NCBI RefSeq assembly: GCF_000970045.1
Contig: NZ_CP009505.1
Location: 1,984,001-2,048,000 of the forward strand
Direction of reading: 5' to 3'
From: Methanosarcina sp. MTP4
GTDB taxonomy: Archaea; Halobacteriota; Methanosarcinia; Methanosarcinales; Methanosarcinaceae
Length of the DNA stretch: 64,000 bases
Shown here one piece after another: positions 3,373 through 11,225 of this stretch. Position 1 is the stretch's first letter. Every line of letters begins with the position of its first letter. The position numbers were made by a program, and so were the translations under genes. Under the pieces are notes generated by a model. That model made no database searches. It saw only the letters and a list, made by a program, of their open reading frames with translations, and was not told the origin of the DNA.

Positions 3373-4749
3373 ATGACATTCAGAAAATCATTTGATTGCT
3401 ACGATTTCTACGACAGAGCAAAAGTCGGTGAGAAATGCACCCAGGACGACTGGGACCTCATGACAATTCCCATGAAGTCCATGGAGCTTAAGCAGAAGTA
3501 CGGGCTTGACTTCAAGGGAGAGATCATCCCTACCGACAAGGACATGATGGAAAAGCTCTTCCAGGCAGGGTTTGAGATGCTCCTCGACTGCGGTATCTAC
3601 TGTACTGACACCCACAGGATCGTCAAGTACACCGAAGAAGAGATCTGGGACGCACTCAACAACATCCAGACGGAATTCACCCTCGGGACCGGTAGGGATT
3701 CAGTTCAGTTCAAGAAGAGAAGCATCGGAGACAAGAGGAAGCCAATTGTCCAGGGAGGTCCTACCGGGTCCCCGATTTCCGAAGAAGTCTTCATGCCAGT
3801 CCACATGAGCTACGCCCTGGAAAAGGAAGTAGACACCATTGTAGACGGTGTTATGACCTCCGTCCGCGGCAAGCCTCCAATTCCGGGAAGCCCCTATGAA
3901 GTCCTGGCATCAAAGACCGAAACCAGGCTCATCAAGCAGGCAGCAGCAATGGCCGGCAGGCCAGGCATGGGCATATAGGGCCCTGAGACCTCCCTGTCCG
4001 CTCAGGGAAACATTGCCTCTGACTGCTACGGTGGACAGATCTCCTCTGACAGCCACGAAGTCTCCCAGCTCAACGAGCTGAAGATCGACCTCGATGCAAT
4101 CGCAGTAATTGCTCACTACAAAGGCAACAGCGATATTATCATGGACGAACAGATGCCAATCTTTGGCGGATACGCCGGCGGCATTGAAGAGACCACAATC
4201 GTGGACATTGCAACCCACATCAACGCATTCGTCATGAGCAGCGCAAGCTGGCACCTTGACGGCCCTGTCCACATCCGCTGGGGATCCACCAACACCAGGG
4301 AAACCCTGACAATCGCAGGCTGGGCATGTGCAACTATCTCCGAGTTTACAGACATCCTCTCCGGGAACCAGTACTACCCATGTGCAGGCCCCTGTACCGA
4401 GATGTGTCTCCTCGAAGCTTCCGCCCAGTCCATGACTGACACCGCTTCAGGCCGTGAAATCCTCTCCGGTGTGGCAGCCGCAAAGGGTGTCGTCACCGAC
4501 AAGACCACAGGTATGGAAGCCAGGATGATGGGAGAAGTCGCAAGGGCAACCGCAGGCATGGACATCGCAGAAGTCAACGGAATCCTCGACAAGCTCGTCG
4601 GCCTCTACGAGAAGAACTATGCAAACGCACCCGCAGGCAAGACCTTCCAGGAATGCTACGACGTTAAGACCGTAACACCCACGGACGAATACATGCAGGT
4701 CTACGACGGAGCAAGGAAGCAGCTCGAAGACCTCGGACTCGTATTCTAA
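3373..4749 (+). CDS. mtmB: Monomethylamine methyltransferase MtmB, pyrrolysine protein
   Basis: 458 residues when the in-frame TAG at 3976-3978 is read as pyrrolysine at position 202. The sequence is continuous across the codon (GRPGMGI-Pyl-GPETSLS), and both halves belong to MtmB, a TIM barrel that uses pyrrolysine to present methylamine to the Co(I) of MtmC. The first half ends at residue 201 and the second half has no start of its own, so this is one gene and not a split pair. It ends at a TAA. It is the second gene of the mtmCB operon and is followed by a terminator-like hairpin. Similar gene pairs are often duplicated in Methanosarcina genomes. Confidence 0.96.
3976..3978 (+). other. TAG codon for pyrrolysine in mtmB
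   Basis: The amber codon sits at codon 202 of mtmB, inside the conserved GMGI/GPETS context of the family. It is read by tRNA-Pyl (pylT) charged by PylS, neither of which is encoded in this window. Confidence 0.95.
3981..4007 (+). promoter_or_regulatory. Stem-loop just after the pyrrolysine codon (PYLIS-like)
   Basis: CCCTGAG at 3981-3987 pairs perfectly with CTCAGGG at 4001-4007 around a 13-nt loop, starting two bases after the TAG. A hairpin in this position has been proposed as the PYLIS element in mtmB. In vivo the need for it appears partial, so this is a structural note more than a proven signal. Confidence 0.6.
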
Positions 4750-5152: not shown

Positions 5153-5628
5153 AACTGTTGTTGCAAGGTGTCAACCTACCGAATTTAACGTACCGAATTT
5201 TTTGTAAAGACGGTATTTGGGGTGCGAAAAAAACGTTATTAGGGGATTTCTGAAAAGATGGTGTACAGGGTTTTTCTAAAGACGGAAATTCAGGAAAGGT
5301 TATGATGGGGTGGTACTCACAAGCGAACGGAACGGACAGGAAGAAGGGATGAACCTATCCATCTAGAGTAATCGTTGTGATTCTCGTGTGTGTGTGTGAA
5401 ATGAGGCTTCGAGGTCCGCTTGCAAGCAACCGGTATCTTATTACCGTAAAATATTATTTAAAGCTTTTTATCATTTCTTGAAATTGTATAGGAAGTTCTT
5501 TTCATGTAAGATTTTTCATTGAACTGAGGGAGACCAAAGGGAAAACCCTGCCCTGTTTCTTACATGGCAAAGCTAATATCCTCACACGGCAATACTCTTA
5601 TGCAAAAGTAGAACTTGGGGGATGCAGG
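5153..5628. other. Intergenic spacer before the 23-residue-repeat gene cluster
   Basis: About 475 bp without a supported gene. It contains a short TG microsatellite near 5388-5398 and an AT-rich stretch (AAAATATTATTTAAAGC near 5448-5464) that could be the promoter of the following gene. The frame of the next gene stays open some way upstream of its proposed start, but with no homology to the paralogs there. Confidence 0.5.
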
Positions 5629-6510
5629 ATTCTTCCGCTGGATGAAACCGAAGCTTTTGAAATGGGAATGGCTGCAGTCAATGAAGGAAGCGAAGCTGAG
5701 GTCATACAACTTCTGAATTACCTGAATGAAATTGCGGTTAAGTATGCCGGGGAAGGCAAGGAAGCCGATACCAGGAGAATAGTTGAGTACATAAAGGATA
5801 TCGGAAGAGCAGCAGCTTTAAAGCGGCTGGAAATGGCAGCTATTACCTCACTCCTGCTCCTGGCCCCGGTTGCAAAGGAAGCCTGCAGGCAGCAGATGGA
5901 AAGTATCCTTGTAAGCATTGCCCTGGCGATCGGGGAGGTCGGAAAAGCTGCGGGAGAGCAGAAGCTTGAAGTTCCCGCAAAGGTGGCTGCTTCCTGCCTG
6001 GGAGAAATGGGGAACACGGCGGCTTGCAGGAAACTGAAAAAAGAAACAATAGCGGTTATTTTTTCCCTGGGGGAGATCGGAAAAAGCGTAACCCAGCAGA
6101 AACTCGGGGACGCTGCGGAAAGCACGCTAGCCTGGCTGGGGATTACCGGGAAAGTTGCCGCAAGCCAGAATTTTGAGGCCGCTGCGCTCAATGCCGAGCT
6201 CCTCCTGCAGGAACTGGGGTCCAATGCGATTGAAAAGGACCTGAAGAAGGCTGCTGAAGCAACTGCCCGTTCCCTGGAGGGCATAGGGCGAGTTGCAGAT
6301 GAACAGGGGCTTAAAAAGGCCCGTTTGCAGGCAGCATATTCCCTGGAGACGATCAAATTTGACGCCGATGACCGCTACCTTATGAGCGCTTCCATCATTG
6401 CAGGGGTAGCTCTCCAGTATTTTGAGAAGTTTGAAACGGAAAAGGAAGGGGTAAGCCGCAAGAAAACCCGTAATGTAAAGAGACGGTTCCCGGAAGGGAA
6501 TGCCGAATAA
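5629..6510 (+). CDS. 23-residue helical repeat protein 1, apparent ATT start
   Basis: Reading from ATT at 5629 gives 293 residues. From about residue 25 to the end it consists of about ten back-to-back 23-residue units, e.g. LEVPAKVAASCLGEMGN followed by TAACRK, with hydrophobic residue 1, Leu12, Glu14, Gly16, Lys17 and Ala19 preferred; each should form one or two helices of an alpha-solenoid. The conserved head LPLDETEAFEMGM aligns position by position with the starts of the four downstream paralogs only if ATT is the first codon, and GGGGGAT lies just upstream. The next ATG (5662) would remove this head. There is no signal peptide. The tail is basic (RKKTRNVKRR). Function unknown. Confidence 0.7.
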   Translation: MLPLDETEAFEMGMAAVNEGSEAEVIQLLNYLNEIAVKYAGEGKEADTRRIVEYIKDIGRAAALKRLEMAAITSLLLLAPVAKEACRQQMESILVSIALAIGEVGKAAGEQKLEVPAKVAASCLGEMGNTAACRKLKKETIAVIFSLGEIGKSVTQQKLGDAAESTLAWLGITGKVAASQNFEAAALNAELLLQELGSNAIEKDLKKAAEATARSLEGIGRVADEQGLKKARLQAAYSLETIKFDADDRYLMSASIIAGVALQYFEKFETEKEGVSRKKTRNVKRRFPEGNAE

Positions 6511-6647
6511 ACTTCATTAAAAGGGAAAACAGCAGTTTGGAGAGGTCCCGGACACTTGCATTTCCCTGTAAAGGAGCATGGAAACTGCCAGATAACCCGG
6601 AAGCCAGCTCCATTCCGCGCCTGGTGATATCTTAAAGAGGATCATAC

Positions 6648-7487
6648 ATGTCTATCTTGAATGAGGCAAGGGCTACAGACCTTGGTTTAAGTTCGGTTAA
6701 GGAAAAGGATGAATTGGGGGTGCTCAGGTCTATCGATTTCCTGACCGAGCGCGGGACAGAATACATAAACAAAAGGCTGGAAACAGATGCCAAGAGAGCT
6801 GTGACCTGTATAAAAAATATTGGGAACGCTGCCGCTCTTCAAAGGATGGAAGCCGGGGTTTTCATCTCCCTTATCTCCTTGGGCCGGATGGCAAAAGCTG
6901 CCAGGGGAAAGGAGATGACAGATACAAGCCAGAGTATTCTGTATTCCCTCTGTGCAGTCGGAAAAGCTGCAGCCGGACAGGGGATGGAAGCTGCGGTAAG
7001 GGTTGTGGTGGCATACCTGGGAGAAATAGTTAATTCCGCCTCCGTGCAAGATAAGAAAAGTGAAGCTTTGACTGCGGCCCTGGCTCTTGGGGTGGTAGGT
7101 ACGAGCGTGTGCAAGAATTCCGCTTCAGGGGGTCCGGATAACGGAGGAATTATTCCCGTTATGCCGGGAATTTTGCTGTCCCCGCCGCTTCATGAGGATG
7201 CATCCTTTATTTCAGACGATTTTTCTGAAGTTTTCGGGTTTGCACTTACCCATTCCGAGAATGGAGGTTCGCAGGAAGGTGAGCCTTTCCTTTCAGAAAG
7301 TGAGCCTCAGAAAGTCGAAAACGAAGCCCTTGATAATGCTGTTATCCGGGCTGCTCATTCCCTTGAGAACATGAGAATCGAAACTGACGAGAAATACATG
7401 ATAAGTCATGTACTTATGGCAAAAATCTCCCTTGAAGTTTTTAATTGCACCGAAATGATAAATGAAGCAGAAAGCCTGGACAAATAA
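6648..7487 (+). CDS. 23-residue helical repeat protein 2, with linker
   Basis: 279 residues, second of five tandem paralogs. It shares the head (MSILNEARATDLGL) and the 23-residue units (e.g. MEAAVRVVVAYLGEIVNSA), but after about five units the repeats are replaced by some 70 residues of Gly/Pro/Ser/Glu-rich linker (about residues 158-226). It ends with the family's C-terminal cap (AAHSLENMRIETDEKY). The central units have therefore been lost or replaced. AGAGGAT precedes the ATG. No enzymatic motif or membrane segment. Function unknown. Confidence 0.78.
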   Translation: MSILNEARATDLGLSSVKEKDELGVLRSIDFLTERGTEYINKRLETDAKRAVTCIKNIGNAAALQRMEAGVFISLISLGRMAKAARGKEMTDTSQSILYSLCAVGKAAAGQGMEAAVRVVVAYLGEIVNSASVQDKKSEALTAALALGVVGTSVCKNSASGGPDNGGIIPVMPGILLSPPLHEDASFISDDFSEVFGFALTHSENGGSQEGEPFLSESEPQKVENEALDNAVIRAAHSLENMRIETDEKYMISHVLMAKISLEVFNCTEMINEAESLDK

Positions 7488-7940
7488 GGTTTTTAGCGTC
7501 TCCTTACACCCTTTCACCTGACAATCCCATTTTCCTGGCAGCTGAGTATTCCAGGCTTTACCCTGCCGGGAATATTTTACGATCCCCCGACAGGAAGATA
7601 TTTTATACTCTCCTCAGTTATTTCCCTATTTCCTGACGGGGATTTCCCTATTTTCTGACCGATATTTTGCGATTTCTCGCGTTAAAACCCTCGTCCCGAT
7701 GGCTGCCTTTTGGAAGCTCAGACCGGGTGATAAAGCCGTATCTTTATACTCTGGGCATTTTCGTGCTATATAGCAACACTAATAACCTCAGAACTTCATA
7801 GAGTAGGCAGGAAACAAAACCGTACACTTATTATATTTATTTATCTGACTGGGGCGCAGAAGCATTCAGCAGGCTGAGACTCAAAAACATCTAAATAATT
7901 CATAATAGTTTGACAAACCTGACAAGAGGGGAAAAAGAAA
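7488..7940. other. Intergenic spacer between repeat-protein genes 2 and 3
   Basis: About 450 bp without a supported gene. Several imperfect copies of a motif like TTTCCCTATTTCCTGACGGG occur near 7560-7670. TATTATATTTATTTATC near 7831-7846 is a plausible TATA region for the next gene, suggesting its own promoter. Confidence 0.5.
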
Positions 7941-8825
7941 ATGATAACATTGAATGAAGCGGATGCCATGGAGGTAGGCTTAACCTCGGTTGAAGAGGGG
8001 GATGAGAGCCGGGTTTTCCAGGCACTGGACTCCCTTACAGGAATTGCGGTAGACTTCATAACGGAAAATGAAGGGGCCGATGCCGAGAGGGTCATCTTCT
8101 CCATCGATGAGATCGCGGAGTTGGCTGCGGAGGCAAAACTCGAACTCGTTACGATCAATTCCATTCTGGCTATGGGGAACCTGGCAAAGGCAGCAGCAGA
8201 AAAGGGCTTTGAGTCCACAGTGGGAAAAACCGTTGTTTCGATAGGAAAACTCGGGAAGAAGGCTGTGAAAAGCGACCTCGGGACCGCCTCAAAGGTTGCG
8301 GTAACGACCCTGATGGAGATCAGAAAAGCCTCTTCCGGGCAGAGGGGTACGGAAGAAACGGTTACCATGGCTTTGCTCTTCAGGGAAATAGGCCTGGTTG
8401 CGGGCAAACGGGACATGAAAGAAGCGCTGATAAATGTGCTGACTTTCCTTGGAGAGGTCGGAAGAAATGTTGCCGGAGAAGGGCTTGAGACCGAATCTCT
8501 CAGTGTACTCCTTCTGCTGGAGGAACTTGGCGCGCTGGCTTCGGAAAAATACTTTGATGAAGCTCTCAGTTCAACCGCCATCTCGGTTGAAGAGATCGGA
8601 AAACTTTCCCTGAAGAAGGACATGCAGGGGGCTTTCCTACAGAGCCAGTGGACGCTTGAGACTTTAAAAGTTCAGGCTGAAGAAAATGTCCTGACGAATT
8701 CTTCTATTGTGACGGAACTTGCCCTTGAAAACTTCGAAAGTGAAGGAGTTGCTGAAACAGATGAAAGCCTGGAGAAGCTGCAGAAAGTAAAGGAATTGCA
8801 TGAAAAGATCCTTTCCGGAATGTGA
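7941..8825 (+). CDS. 23-residue helical repeat protein 3
   Basis: 294 residues, the most regular member of the five-gene family. After the head MITLNEADAMEVGL it runs in nearly perfect 23-residue register for about ten units (LELVT.., FESTV.., LGTAS.., GTEET.., MKEAL.., LETES.., FDEAL.., MQGAF..), most carrying Leu12-x-Glu14-Ile/Leu15-Gly16-Lys17. AGAGGGG precedes the ATG. It is predicted soluble and fully helical. The resemblance to HEAT/ARM solenoids is one of style only; the unit is shorter than a HEAT repeat (37-47 residues). Function unknown. Confidence 0.8.
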   Translation: MITLNEADAMEVGLTSVEEGDESRVFQALDSLTGIAVDFITENEGADAERVIFSIDEIAELAAEAKLELVTINSILAMGNLAKAAAEKGFESTVGKTVVSIGKLGKKAVKSDLGTASKVAVTTLMEIRKASSGQRGTEETVTMALLFREIGLVAGKRDMKEALINVLTFLGEVGRNVAGEGLETESLSVLLLLEELGALASEKYFDEALSSTAISVEEIGKLSLKKDMQGAFLQSQWTLETLKVQAEENVLTNSSIVTELALENFESEGVAETDESLEKLQKVKELHEKILSGM

Positions 8826-9182
8826 AAATAGAAGAAATTGAGGAGATAAGTTTTCCTTTTCCTTTCCCTTTTCTTCTTCTTTCATTCAAGTTCTTTCCTT
8901 TCTACCTTTTTTCTTTTCTGGCCCCCCTTTATTCCTTTATCCCTTTAATTTACCCTTCTTTTTCTCCCTTCTCGCCTTTCCTCCCGCCTTCTCCTTCTTT
9001 ACTTTTTCGTTTTGGTGTCTTTTTTTCTCATTATTTCTTCCGTTTTCTTTCCCTATTCTGGAATATGTCCCCCTTGCCGGGGTTGCTGCGTTTAACAGGA
9101 CAAAAAAATGGAGGAAAATGAAAAATTTAATATCCTGCCCGGTCATAATTTATAGTAAAGGCTGCGGAATTGGAGGTGAAGT
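8826..9182. other. Pyrimidine-rich spacer between repeat-protein genes 3 and 4
   Basis: About 350 bp dominated by C/T tracts on the top strand (8850-9060), with no supported gene. The T-rich tract may terminate the upstream gene. A TTTAATATCC stretch near 9125 may be the promoter of gene 4. Confidence 0.5.
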
Positions 9183-10112
9183 ATGCCTTTAACAGAAGAA
9201 GCTCGGCTGCTTGACCAGGGATTCTCGGCGGTTCGGGCGAGGAATGAAGTGCAGCTCCTCCGGACGGTCGACGATCTGGGTGATCTCGGAATCAAATGTG
9301 TCGGGCAGTTTCCGGAAGCAGGTCCGGAAAAGGTGGTCTCCTGCATACAAACCCTCGGTGAAGTTGCGGTTGAAAAGGGACTGACAGTAGGTCTCCTTGA
9401 TGCATCGGTTTCACTGGGAAGAATCGGACAGGAAGCGGCTAGAAAGGGGGTTGAAGAGACGGTCTTAGCTGTTGCATCGGCTCTTTTGACTCTCGGAAAA
9501 AAGGCATCTGATAGTGGAATGCCGGTATCTCTCAGGCTTGTGGCTACTACCCTGAAAGAAGTCGGAAAAGAGGCGGCCAGGAAGGGAATGGAAAAAGCCG
9601 CCATCACCAGCCAGTCTCTCCTGAAAGAAATTGCTACTTTTTCCGGGTGTGAGGACCTGGAAGTGTTCCAGGCTGATATCCCCTCGCTGATCCGGGATGT
9701 CGGAAAAAGTGCTGCAGGGGCAGGGCTTGAAAACGCTGTTATAAGTGCCGAACTCCTGCTGGAAGACGCTCAGATTGCGCTGAACTGGGCTCTGCTCAGG
9801 AAAAGGAAGAGCCTGTATAAAGAGCGGAGGATTTGCGAAGAAACGTGCACTCCTCTCTACTGTCTCGGAGAACTCGGAAAACTTTCCTCCCGGAGGAAGC
9901 TGGAACTTGCCGCTGCTCAGGCGGCTCTCTCTATCGAAATTGTCAGGAAGAACGCTGAGGCTGGTTACCTGGGAAATACCGTACTTTCGGCCGAGTGCCT
10001 GCTTGACTCTTTCCTGGACGTAAAGGTTCCGCGTGCAAAACTGAACCGGAATGCGGAGGAAATTAGGAGGTTGCACGAAAAGATTTATAGCCAGTTTGCT
10101 GAAGTCCGGTAA
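9183..10112 (+). CDS. 23-residue helical repeat protein 4
   Basis: 309 residues, fourth of the tandem family. The head MPLTEEARLLDQGF and the 23-residue units (e.g. MPVSLRLVATTLKEVGKEA) match the paralogs. A basic insertion (LLRKRKSLYKERR, about residues 200-215) interrupts the register near the C-terminus, followed by the cap unit LELAAAQAALSIEIVRKNA. TTGGAGGTGAAG gives one of the best ribosome sites in the window. Predicted cytosolic and helical. Function unknown. Confidence 0.8.
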   Translation: MPLTEEARLLDQGFSAVRARNEVQLLRTVDDLGDLGIKCVGQFPEAGPEKVVSCIQTLGEVAVEKGLTVGLLDASVSLGRIGQEAARKGVEETVLAVASALLTLGKKASDSGMPVSLRLVATTLKEVGKEAARKGMEKAAITSQSLLKEIATFSGCEDLEVFQADIPSLIRDVGKSAAGAGLENAVISAELLLEDAQIALNWALLRKRKSLYKERRICEETCTPLYCLGELGKLSSRRKLELAAAQAALSIEIVRKNAEAGYLGNTVLSAECLLDSFLDVKVPRAKLNRNAEEIRRLHEKIYSQFAEVR

Positions 10113-10430
10113 GGGTTACTTACAATCTTTCGAAAATGTTTCAATCTTTCTGAATTTTTTGAATACAGTTTTGAAAGATTTTCCGGAAACTTTCTTTTCA
10201 GAGGTATTTTTAAGGATTTTTTATCTTCATAAATGCCTTTTTACCCTTTTCCGGTTTCTTAATTTCTTTTTTAAGGTTTTATACTCTTTTTTCAGGGGTA
10301 TTAGCCCCGGATATGCTGATTATATTTCTAAAAATATAGGAAGACTAATATCAGAGTAAACATATAGGATATCAGATAATTATCCAAAATCTAACCTTTC
10401 AAGCATTATTTGATTAAAAGGGGTGTAAAT
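10113..10430. other. AT-rich spacer between repeat-protein genes 4 and 5
   Basis: About 320 bp of T-rich sequence with no supported gene. A possible promoter (TATATTTCTAAAAATATAGG near 10320-10340) lies about 100 bp ahead of the next start. Confidence 0.5.
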
Positions 10431-11225
10431 ATGTTCACAATGAATGAACAGAAGGCAATTGAACTGGGAGAAGCAGGAATAAAGGCAGCCAGTGAAAGAA
10501 ACGAATATGACGCTATCCAGAATATCGACTACCTCAGGGAACTCGGGGTAGAACTTATCAAAGGGGATTTAGAGAAAGAATCCAAAATGGTTGCCGTATA
10601 CATAAGGAATATCGGCACCAAAGCTGCCCAGAAGAGGTTTGAAGAGCCTGCTACTGCTGCAATAGAAGCCCTGAAAGAGCTTTCGGAAATGTCACTTGAA
10701 AAAGGTTACTCCAATGCTCTCTGGTCGCTTGCAAGAGCCGTGCAGGAAGTGGGAAAGGGAGCTGCCCATTTCAAAATCGAGGTGCCTGCACAAAAAGCAG
10801 TTGGAGTCCTTGAAATAATAGGGCTCGGAGCCGTTGAGAAGAAAATGGAAGTTGTCACCCTCTGGACTACCCTCGCTCTTGAAGAAATCGATTTTGTATC
10901 CAATGAACAGGAATTGCCTGAAATCGTGGATGCAGCAAAGGCCGCCTGTGAAGCAATCATAAAGTCCTCGGAAGAAAAAGGCTTTATTGCCAGGCAGCAG
11001 ATAGAAGTCTACCCCAAACTTATCTACGATACCATCAAGAACTTCGGAGGCTATCAGGACCTCAGGCCCTCCAGCTATCAGGATCAGGCCAACGAAGCAT
11101 TCCGTGAGGAAACGTTTTTCGAAGAGGAAGCCGAAGACGAGGAAGCTGAAACCGAGGAAGCTGAAACCGAGGAAGCTGAAACTGAGGAAGCTGAAACCGA
11201 GGAAGCTGAAAATAAGGATAAATAA
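10431..11225 (+). CDS. 23-residue helical repeat protein 5, acidic tail
   Basis: 264 residues, last of the five paralogs. Head MFTMNEQKAIELGE, then about seven 23-residue units (LEKESKMVAVYIRNIGTKA, FEEPATAAIEALKELSEMS and so on). It then leaves the register for a 50-residue highly acidic tail with repeated EEAET pentapeptides, encoded by a 15-nt DNA repeat. GGGGTG lies 6 nt before the ATG at 10431. The tail is a lineage-specific expansion and likely disordered. The gene is convergent with the trp operon (45 bp to the end of trpG). Function unknown. Confidence 0.8.
   Translation: MFTMNEQKAIELGEAGIKAASERNEYDAIQNIDYLRELGVELIKGDLEKESKMVAVYIRNIGTKAAQKRFEEPATAAIEALKELSEMSLEKGYSNALWSLARAVQEVGKGAAHFKIEVPAQKAVGVLEIIGLGAVEKKMEVVTLWTTLALEEIDFVSNEQELPEIVDAAKAACEAIIKSSEEKGFIARQQIEVYPKLIYDTIKNFGGYQDLRPSSYQDQANEAFREETFFEEEAEDEEAETEEAETEEAETEEAETEEAENKDK
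11139..11213 (+). repeat. 15-nt coding tandem repeat (EEAET units)
   Basis: About five copies of gaggaagctgaaacc encode the repeated acidic pentapeptide at the C-terminus of repeat protein 5. The near identity of the copies indicates recent slippage. Confidence 0.85.

Follow-up and report, generated by a model that had tools for sequence, protein, structure and literature searches.

Five Adjacent Genes and Their Setting

The window analyzed here, a stretch of 64,000 nucleotides, is part of a 4.21-Mb Methanosarcinaceae genome. Within 5629–11225 it holds five intact open reading frames, all on the plus strand, whose products of about 264–309 residues share the head M-x-L-N-E-x-x-A; g2 to g5 are 24–33% identical to g1. 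The first, g1 (5629..6510, +), encodes a predicted solenoid protein consisting of the head and about ten 23-residue units, and its orthologs are 59–94% identical. In the product of g2 (6648..7487, +) a predicted solenoid of about seven helices is followed, from residue ~159, by a conserved linker that is modeled with low confidence. The g3 product (7941..8825, +) is modeled by AlphaFold2 as a full-length solenoid in which most units have exactly 23 residues, and that of g4 (9183..10112, +) is a predicted solenoid with one inserted stretch; in several Methanosarcina a g4 copy was not found beside the cluster or is shorter. Finally, g5 (10431..11225, +) specifies a shorter predicted solenoid; a TTG at 10410 is a possible opening of its reading frame.

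A preliminary description of this DNA had portrayed the genes as five adjacent paralogs made of 23-residue repeats, one of them having lost units to a linker and another carrying an acidic tail, and had been able to name no family for them. These features are borne out. Self-similarity at lag 23 is evident in all five products (z 5.3–11.4); the g2 linker has AlphaFold2 pLDDT below 50 at residues 159–275 and is common to the orthologs; the tail is the (EEAET)n stretch at the C terminus of g5; and Pfam and NCBIfam profiles match none of g1 to g5. The cluster also lies, as described, between mtmCB and the trp operon, with mtmC and mtmB upstream and trpG/E/F/D/A downstream on the opposite strand, in convergent orientation. 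In many genomes the cluster is bracketed by the trp genes and a flavin oxidoreductase gene, found here at 16–1470. The trp neighbor is mostly conserved across genomes; only some of them have mtmCB in the interval from the flavin oxidoreductase gene to g1. As expected, mtmB (3373–4749) has an in-frame UAG, the pyrrolysine codon, at codon 202, and PYLIS_1 is present in mtmB of three related loci (L041, L059, and L060).

A Repeat of 23 Residues with a Predicted Single Helix

Against 300 shuffles, the lag-23 z scores of g1 to g5 are 11.4, 5.3, 6.1, 7.0, and 5.6, with harmonics at lags 46 and 69; the same shuffle test gives no self-similarity peak in g1 to g5 at lags 22 and 24. Unit statistics were compiled from the 563 gap-free units of a 69-member alignment. 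The preferred residues are L11 (59%), E13 (38%), I14 (51%), G15 (60%), K16 (34%), and A18 (66%), and the approximate consensus is E-x-A-A-L-x-A-A-L-S-L-G-E-I-G-K-x-A-A-E-Q-K-L. The preferred Leu12, Glu14, Gly16, Lys17, and Ala19 of the preliminary description reappear in this profile with the register shifted by one (L11/E13/G15/K16/A18).

The AlphaFold2 model of g3, for which the input was 69 family members from the window and related loci, has a pLDDT of 93.2 and a pTM of 0.89. Its 13 helices include 45–64, 68–87, 91–110, 114–130, 137–156, 160–179, 183–202, 206–225, and 229–248. Thus each repeat unit, in a prediction of high confidence, comprises a single helix of 20 residues and a turn of three, and the units stack as an α-solenoid: the model displays the tandem antiparallel helices and elongated superhelix of that class, and its structural matches are helical-repeat solenoids. 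In HEAT, TPR, PPR, and the other α-solenoid subfolds reviewed in 2024 (PMC11514114), from which the definition of the HEAT unit is taken, the units have about 31–40 residues and at least two helices. The unit of g1 to g5, with 23 residues and one helix in the model, is shorter than those of HEAT and ARM, as had been noted earlier, and is not the helical hairpin of 31–40 residues that defines HEAT.

Two other descriptions of the periodicity were rejected. A hidden 46-residue repeat of two helices would make units two apart more alike than neighbors, but the identities are 21.1% and 19.7%, respectively; single units are therefore nearly equivalent, and any A/B alternation is weak. A leucine-rich repeat of 23 residues was suggested by a profile match to PDB 4u08 (Leptospira LIC11098, E 2e-6), which we take to be a leucine-rich-repeat protein; because AlphaFold2 predicts helices for the family, the match is regarded as a coincidence of period.

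The solved structures closest in geometry to the g3 model are the designed helical repeats DHR54, DHR49, DHF91, and 8fin, which superimpose with Z 16–20 and 2.4–2.7 Å over 160–172 residues (best Z 20.2, 171 residues, 2.4 Å), with 8fin, DHF91, and DHR54 at the top (Z 19–20, 168–172 residues), whereas natural HEAT/ARM structures, including importin and β-catenin, give Z 13–15 at 7–8 Å; for helical repeats a Z below about 13 means little. Designed helical repeat proteins have a two-helix unit, and they bear no evolutionary relation to g1 to g5.

Relation to DUF2254 and HEAT Proteins

In distant genomes the matches of the family profile fall in open reading frames of 400–600 residues. All 11 of the distant relatives that were scanned score over the cut-off for PF10011 (DUF2254), a membrane family for which we know of no function, and in them the membrane half precedes the repeats. 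Like the free proteins, the DUF2254-borne arms consist of 23-residue repeats with lags of 23, 46, and 69, and they match g1 to g5 at 28–40% identity. They differ in having about four membrane helices, corresponding to the first ~170 positions of PF10011, which the free proteins of Methanosarcina lack: for this membrane half (positions ~5–170) there is neither a profile match nor a hydrophobic segment in g1 to g5. The maximum 19-residue Kyte–Doolittle value is 1.1–1.4 in the five proteins, versus 2.4–3.0 in the membrane-type relatives, in agreement with the cytosolic location first assigned to them.

Aligned by HHalign, the free and membrane-borne repeats score 200 (99.8%), compared with 58 for a reversed control and 16–25 for seven genuine HEAT_PBS proteins of the same genome. 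Since the reversed control itself reaches 58, part of the score reflects composition and periodicity, and the margin rather than the E-value is the evidence. By sequence identity, profile matches, and this margin, the repeats of g1 to g5 are homologous to the arm that DUF2254-type membrane proteins of Halobacteriota carry on the cytosolic side. When three canonical DUF2254 proteins are aligned with the repeat-arm members, the HHalign alignment ends with the membrane part, before the soluble half (positions ~180–368), and gives no link between that half and the head of the free proteins. Methanosarcina also has DUF2254-type frames of 840–970 residues (L113 and L124), with C-terminal helical regions that are different and more degenerate. 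A search of the window's own genome gave no DUF2254 match, so the free proteins need no membrane partner of that kind there.

It might be argued instead that g1 to g5 are divergent HEAT or phycobilisome-lyase-like repeats, in which a 31-residue unit has been cut to 23 residues and its two helices have merged; their class of fold would then be a known one. HEAT_PBS (PF03130), HEAT, and ARM are α-solenoids as g1 to g5 are predicted to be, and the A..LGxIG motif is common to HEAT_PBS and the 23-residue repeats. One membrane-type relative, L033, matches HEAT_PBS over the curated cut-off (E 6.7e-9; 1.6e-10 for its repeats alone), and the match is specific, in that neither the reversed sequence nor any of three position-permuted versions gives one. 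Membrane-type repeats reach 5–45% HHalign probability against genuine HEAT_PBS proteins, and importin and β-catenin are among the PDB matches of the g3 model. However, L033 is the only one of the 11 membrane-type relatives to match HEAT_PBS, none of the seven free proteins of the genome does so, and the free proteins do not exceed 1.7% in HHalign. HEAT and HEAT_PBS profiles find nothing in g1 to g5 at E ≤ 10; PF03130 gives nothing in the cluster at E ≤ 1, versus 90 matches elsewhere in the same genome, whose genuine HEAT_PBS proteins number at least seven and mostly show a spacing of 31 residues (lag 31). HEAT units break after the LGxIG-type motif, but in the g3 model the helix passes straight through it. 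Descent by trimming of a HEAT unit thus seems unlikely to us, although some kinship of the 23-residue repeats with HEAT is possible on the evidence of these profile matches. As to placement in a known superfamily, which the preliminary description had set against its proposal, g1 to g5 stand apart from HEAT_PBS and one distant relative does not.

The proposal of a new solenoid class therefore needs amendment. The solenoid is predicted with high confidence, but the repeats are not isolated from known families, since DUF2254 proteins carry them. We lean toward a natural α-solenoid subclass, with a single 23-residue helix as its unit, that serves as an arm of DUF2254 proteins across Halobacteriota and has been freed and multiplied in Methanosarcina. 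The five proteins are a real, conserved, and previously unannotated variant of the α-solenoid, to which a function can be assigned by inference only.

Distribution and Descent

Relatives occur in 64 of 150 genomes of the order, and a search of the phylum with the family profile matches 64 of 393 genomes. Among the 64 of the order are 25 genomes of Methanosarcina and of the window's own genus, its sister, with 2–9 matches each (median six). Within the Halobacteriota searched, free-standing copies are confined to these two genera, while the membrane form is found in several families and classes. Two further free paralogs elsewhere in the window's genome bring its free proteins to seven. Across the genus the dispersed paralogs keep neighbors of their own, DUF711 and phosphoribosyltransferase genes in one case and a helicase, sometimes with an ECF transporter, in the other; no partner gene common to the cluster and the dispersed paralogs was seen among the conserved neighbors.

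A tree of 71 proteins resolves five clades, one for each of g1 to g5 and each with members from Methanosarcina and the window's genus; the paralogs therefore predate the split of the genera. The dN/dS ratios are 0.17–0.29, the g5 value resting on saturated dS. By these sequence comparisons g1 to g5 are ancient paralogs under purifying selection. Since the free form occurs in two genera and the membrane form is widespread, a history in which the membrane half was lost before the duplications is the simpler one. The direction from membrane to free form is inferred by parsimony on the sampled genomes, and the reverse, in which the membrane form arose by fusion, is possible. Relatives were found neither in the viral contigs searched nor on plasmids, and BFVD matches are weak; a viral origin was rejected.

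Proposed Role of the Free Solenoids

We propose, with a probability of about 0.55, that g1 to g5 encode cytosolic docking solenoids that descend from the arms of DUF2254-type proteins, or from a common ancestor of both, and that multiplied in Methanosarcina and its sister genus. The small residues of an A7-L11-G12-G15-A18 face would form the antiparallel contacts between successive helices, and the resulting rod would leave a long groove exposed. In the ancestor of the two genera, an arm without its membrane half may have multiplied into paralogs that were separately retained. Each paralog would most plausibly be an adaptor for protein docking, with a partner of its own bound along this groove, and the g2 linker and the g5 acidic tail could tune the choice of partner. 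No enzyme-like conserved polar site caught attention in the comparisons made here. It may be that g1 is expressed with nitrogen status.

A natural family of single-helix repeats, with a geometry nearest to that of designed proteins, would offer repeat-protein design a new template. For DUF2254 the kinship would supply a modular cytosolic arm, and for Methanosarcina a set of conserved proteins, about six per genome and without annotation, of which the first adjoins the gene for the nitrogen regulator sRNA154. The readings considered here can be tested in a genetically tractable methanogen.

The surroundings of g1 could suggest more specific roles. The window encodes sRNA154, the nitrogen-limitation sRNA (RF02906; 5301..5432, minus strand), divergently from g1; it is a neighbor of g1 that lies outside the protein family. 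At 88.5 bits against a cut-off of 88 this copy barely exceeds the Rfam threshold, but nine other loci have sRNA154 in this position, at 97–157 bits. An exact GGTA-N6-TACC, the NrpR-type operator GGTATCTTATTACC (5432..5445, no strand assigned), lies between sRNA154 and g1. In M. mazei, sRNA154 is the central nitrogen sRNA (PMC3177094, PMC11456600); it sits between MM3337 and MM3338, and an NrpR operator has been reported at its promoter (PMC3177094). Presumably g1 is one of MM3337 and MM3338, both of which the literature found mentions solely as neighbors on either side of sRNA154; a literature search with M. acetivorans gene numbers found no paper.

With sRNA154 and the NrpR-type operator in its own upstream region, g1 may follow nitrogen status, and g1, perhaps with the whole cluster, could belong to the physiology of nitrogen limitation, co-regulated with sRNA154 through the shared operator. 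In the window and in L042, L044, L045, L047, L056, L057, and L060, about 195–240 bases separate the divergent sRNA from the start of g1, the sRNA also precedes g1 in L059 and L064, and the GGTA-N6-TACC element separates the two in many loci. The operator, however, overlaps the start of sRNA154, and its action on g1 is putative; sRNA154 falls below threshold in L046, L049, L051, L053, L054, L055, and L063, though g1 is present; and divergent neighbors are often unrelated. A nitrogen role for the cluster is accordingly improbable in our estimation. Still less can be said for a methylamine-specific scaffold working with MtmC and MtmB, the role to which the preliminary description had pointed and which we consider very unlikely. 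It draws on the adjacency of mtmCB to the cluster in the window's genus and in some Methanosarcina, but several Methanosarcina clusters have no mtmCB beside them, the pair being absent from the interval that separates the flavin oxidoreductase gene from g1 in L046, L048, L049, L055, L063, and L065; the dispersed paralogs have other neighbors, and sRNA154 is the closer neighbor of g1. The term scaffold for g1 to g5 would be drawn from the predicted fold. We continue to prefer general docking solenoids, each paralog with its own partner.

The Start of g1 and Irregular Copies in Two Related Genomes

When g1 is aligned on the Met-x-Leu-Asn-Glu head of its paralogs, it begins at an ATT, 5629–5631; the first standard start is the ATG at 5662. 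In 19 loci (the window and 18 related ones) ATT, or ATA in L054, is conserved at the position of Met1, 10 of the 19 have an in-frame stop two codons ahead of it, and no ATG, GTG, or TTG start for g1 is conserved. A run of G is found 8–9 bases upstream of the ATT. A start by frameshifting from a mini-ORF was rejected: L053 and L054 lack its ATG, in L042 a TAG follows it, and since the ATG is not kept, a non-AUG start is preferred. The simplest reading is that g1 probably starts at the conserved AUU codon. AUU starts are rare and in some systems regulatory, as in E. coli infC.

In a metagenome-assembled genome of the window's genus (L041), g1 has an in-frame TAG near its 3′ end, at about 10823, which could be pyrrolysine, a true stop, or an error. 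In another metagenome-assembled genome (L044), a HEARO RNA (RF02033) occupies 1835–2039, between g1 and g2, and the g2 open reading frame opens within this RNA as a longer frame of 366 residues.
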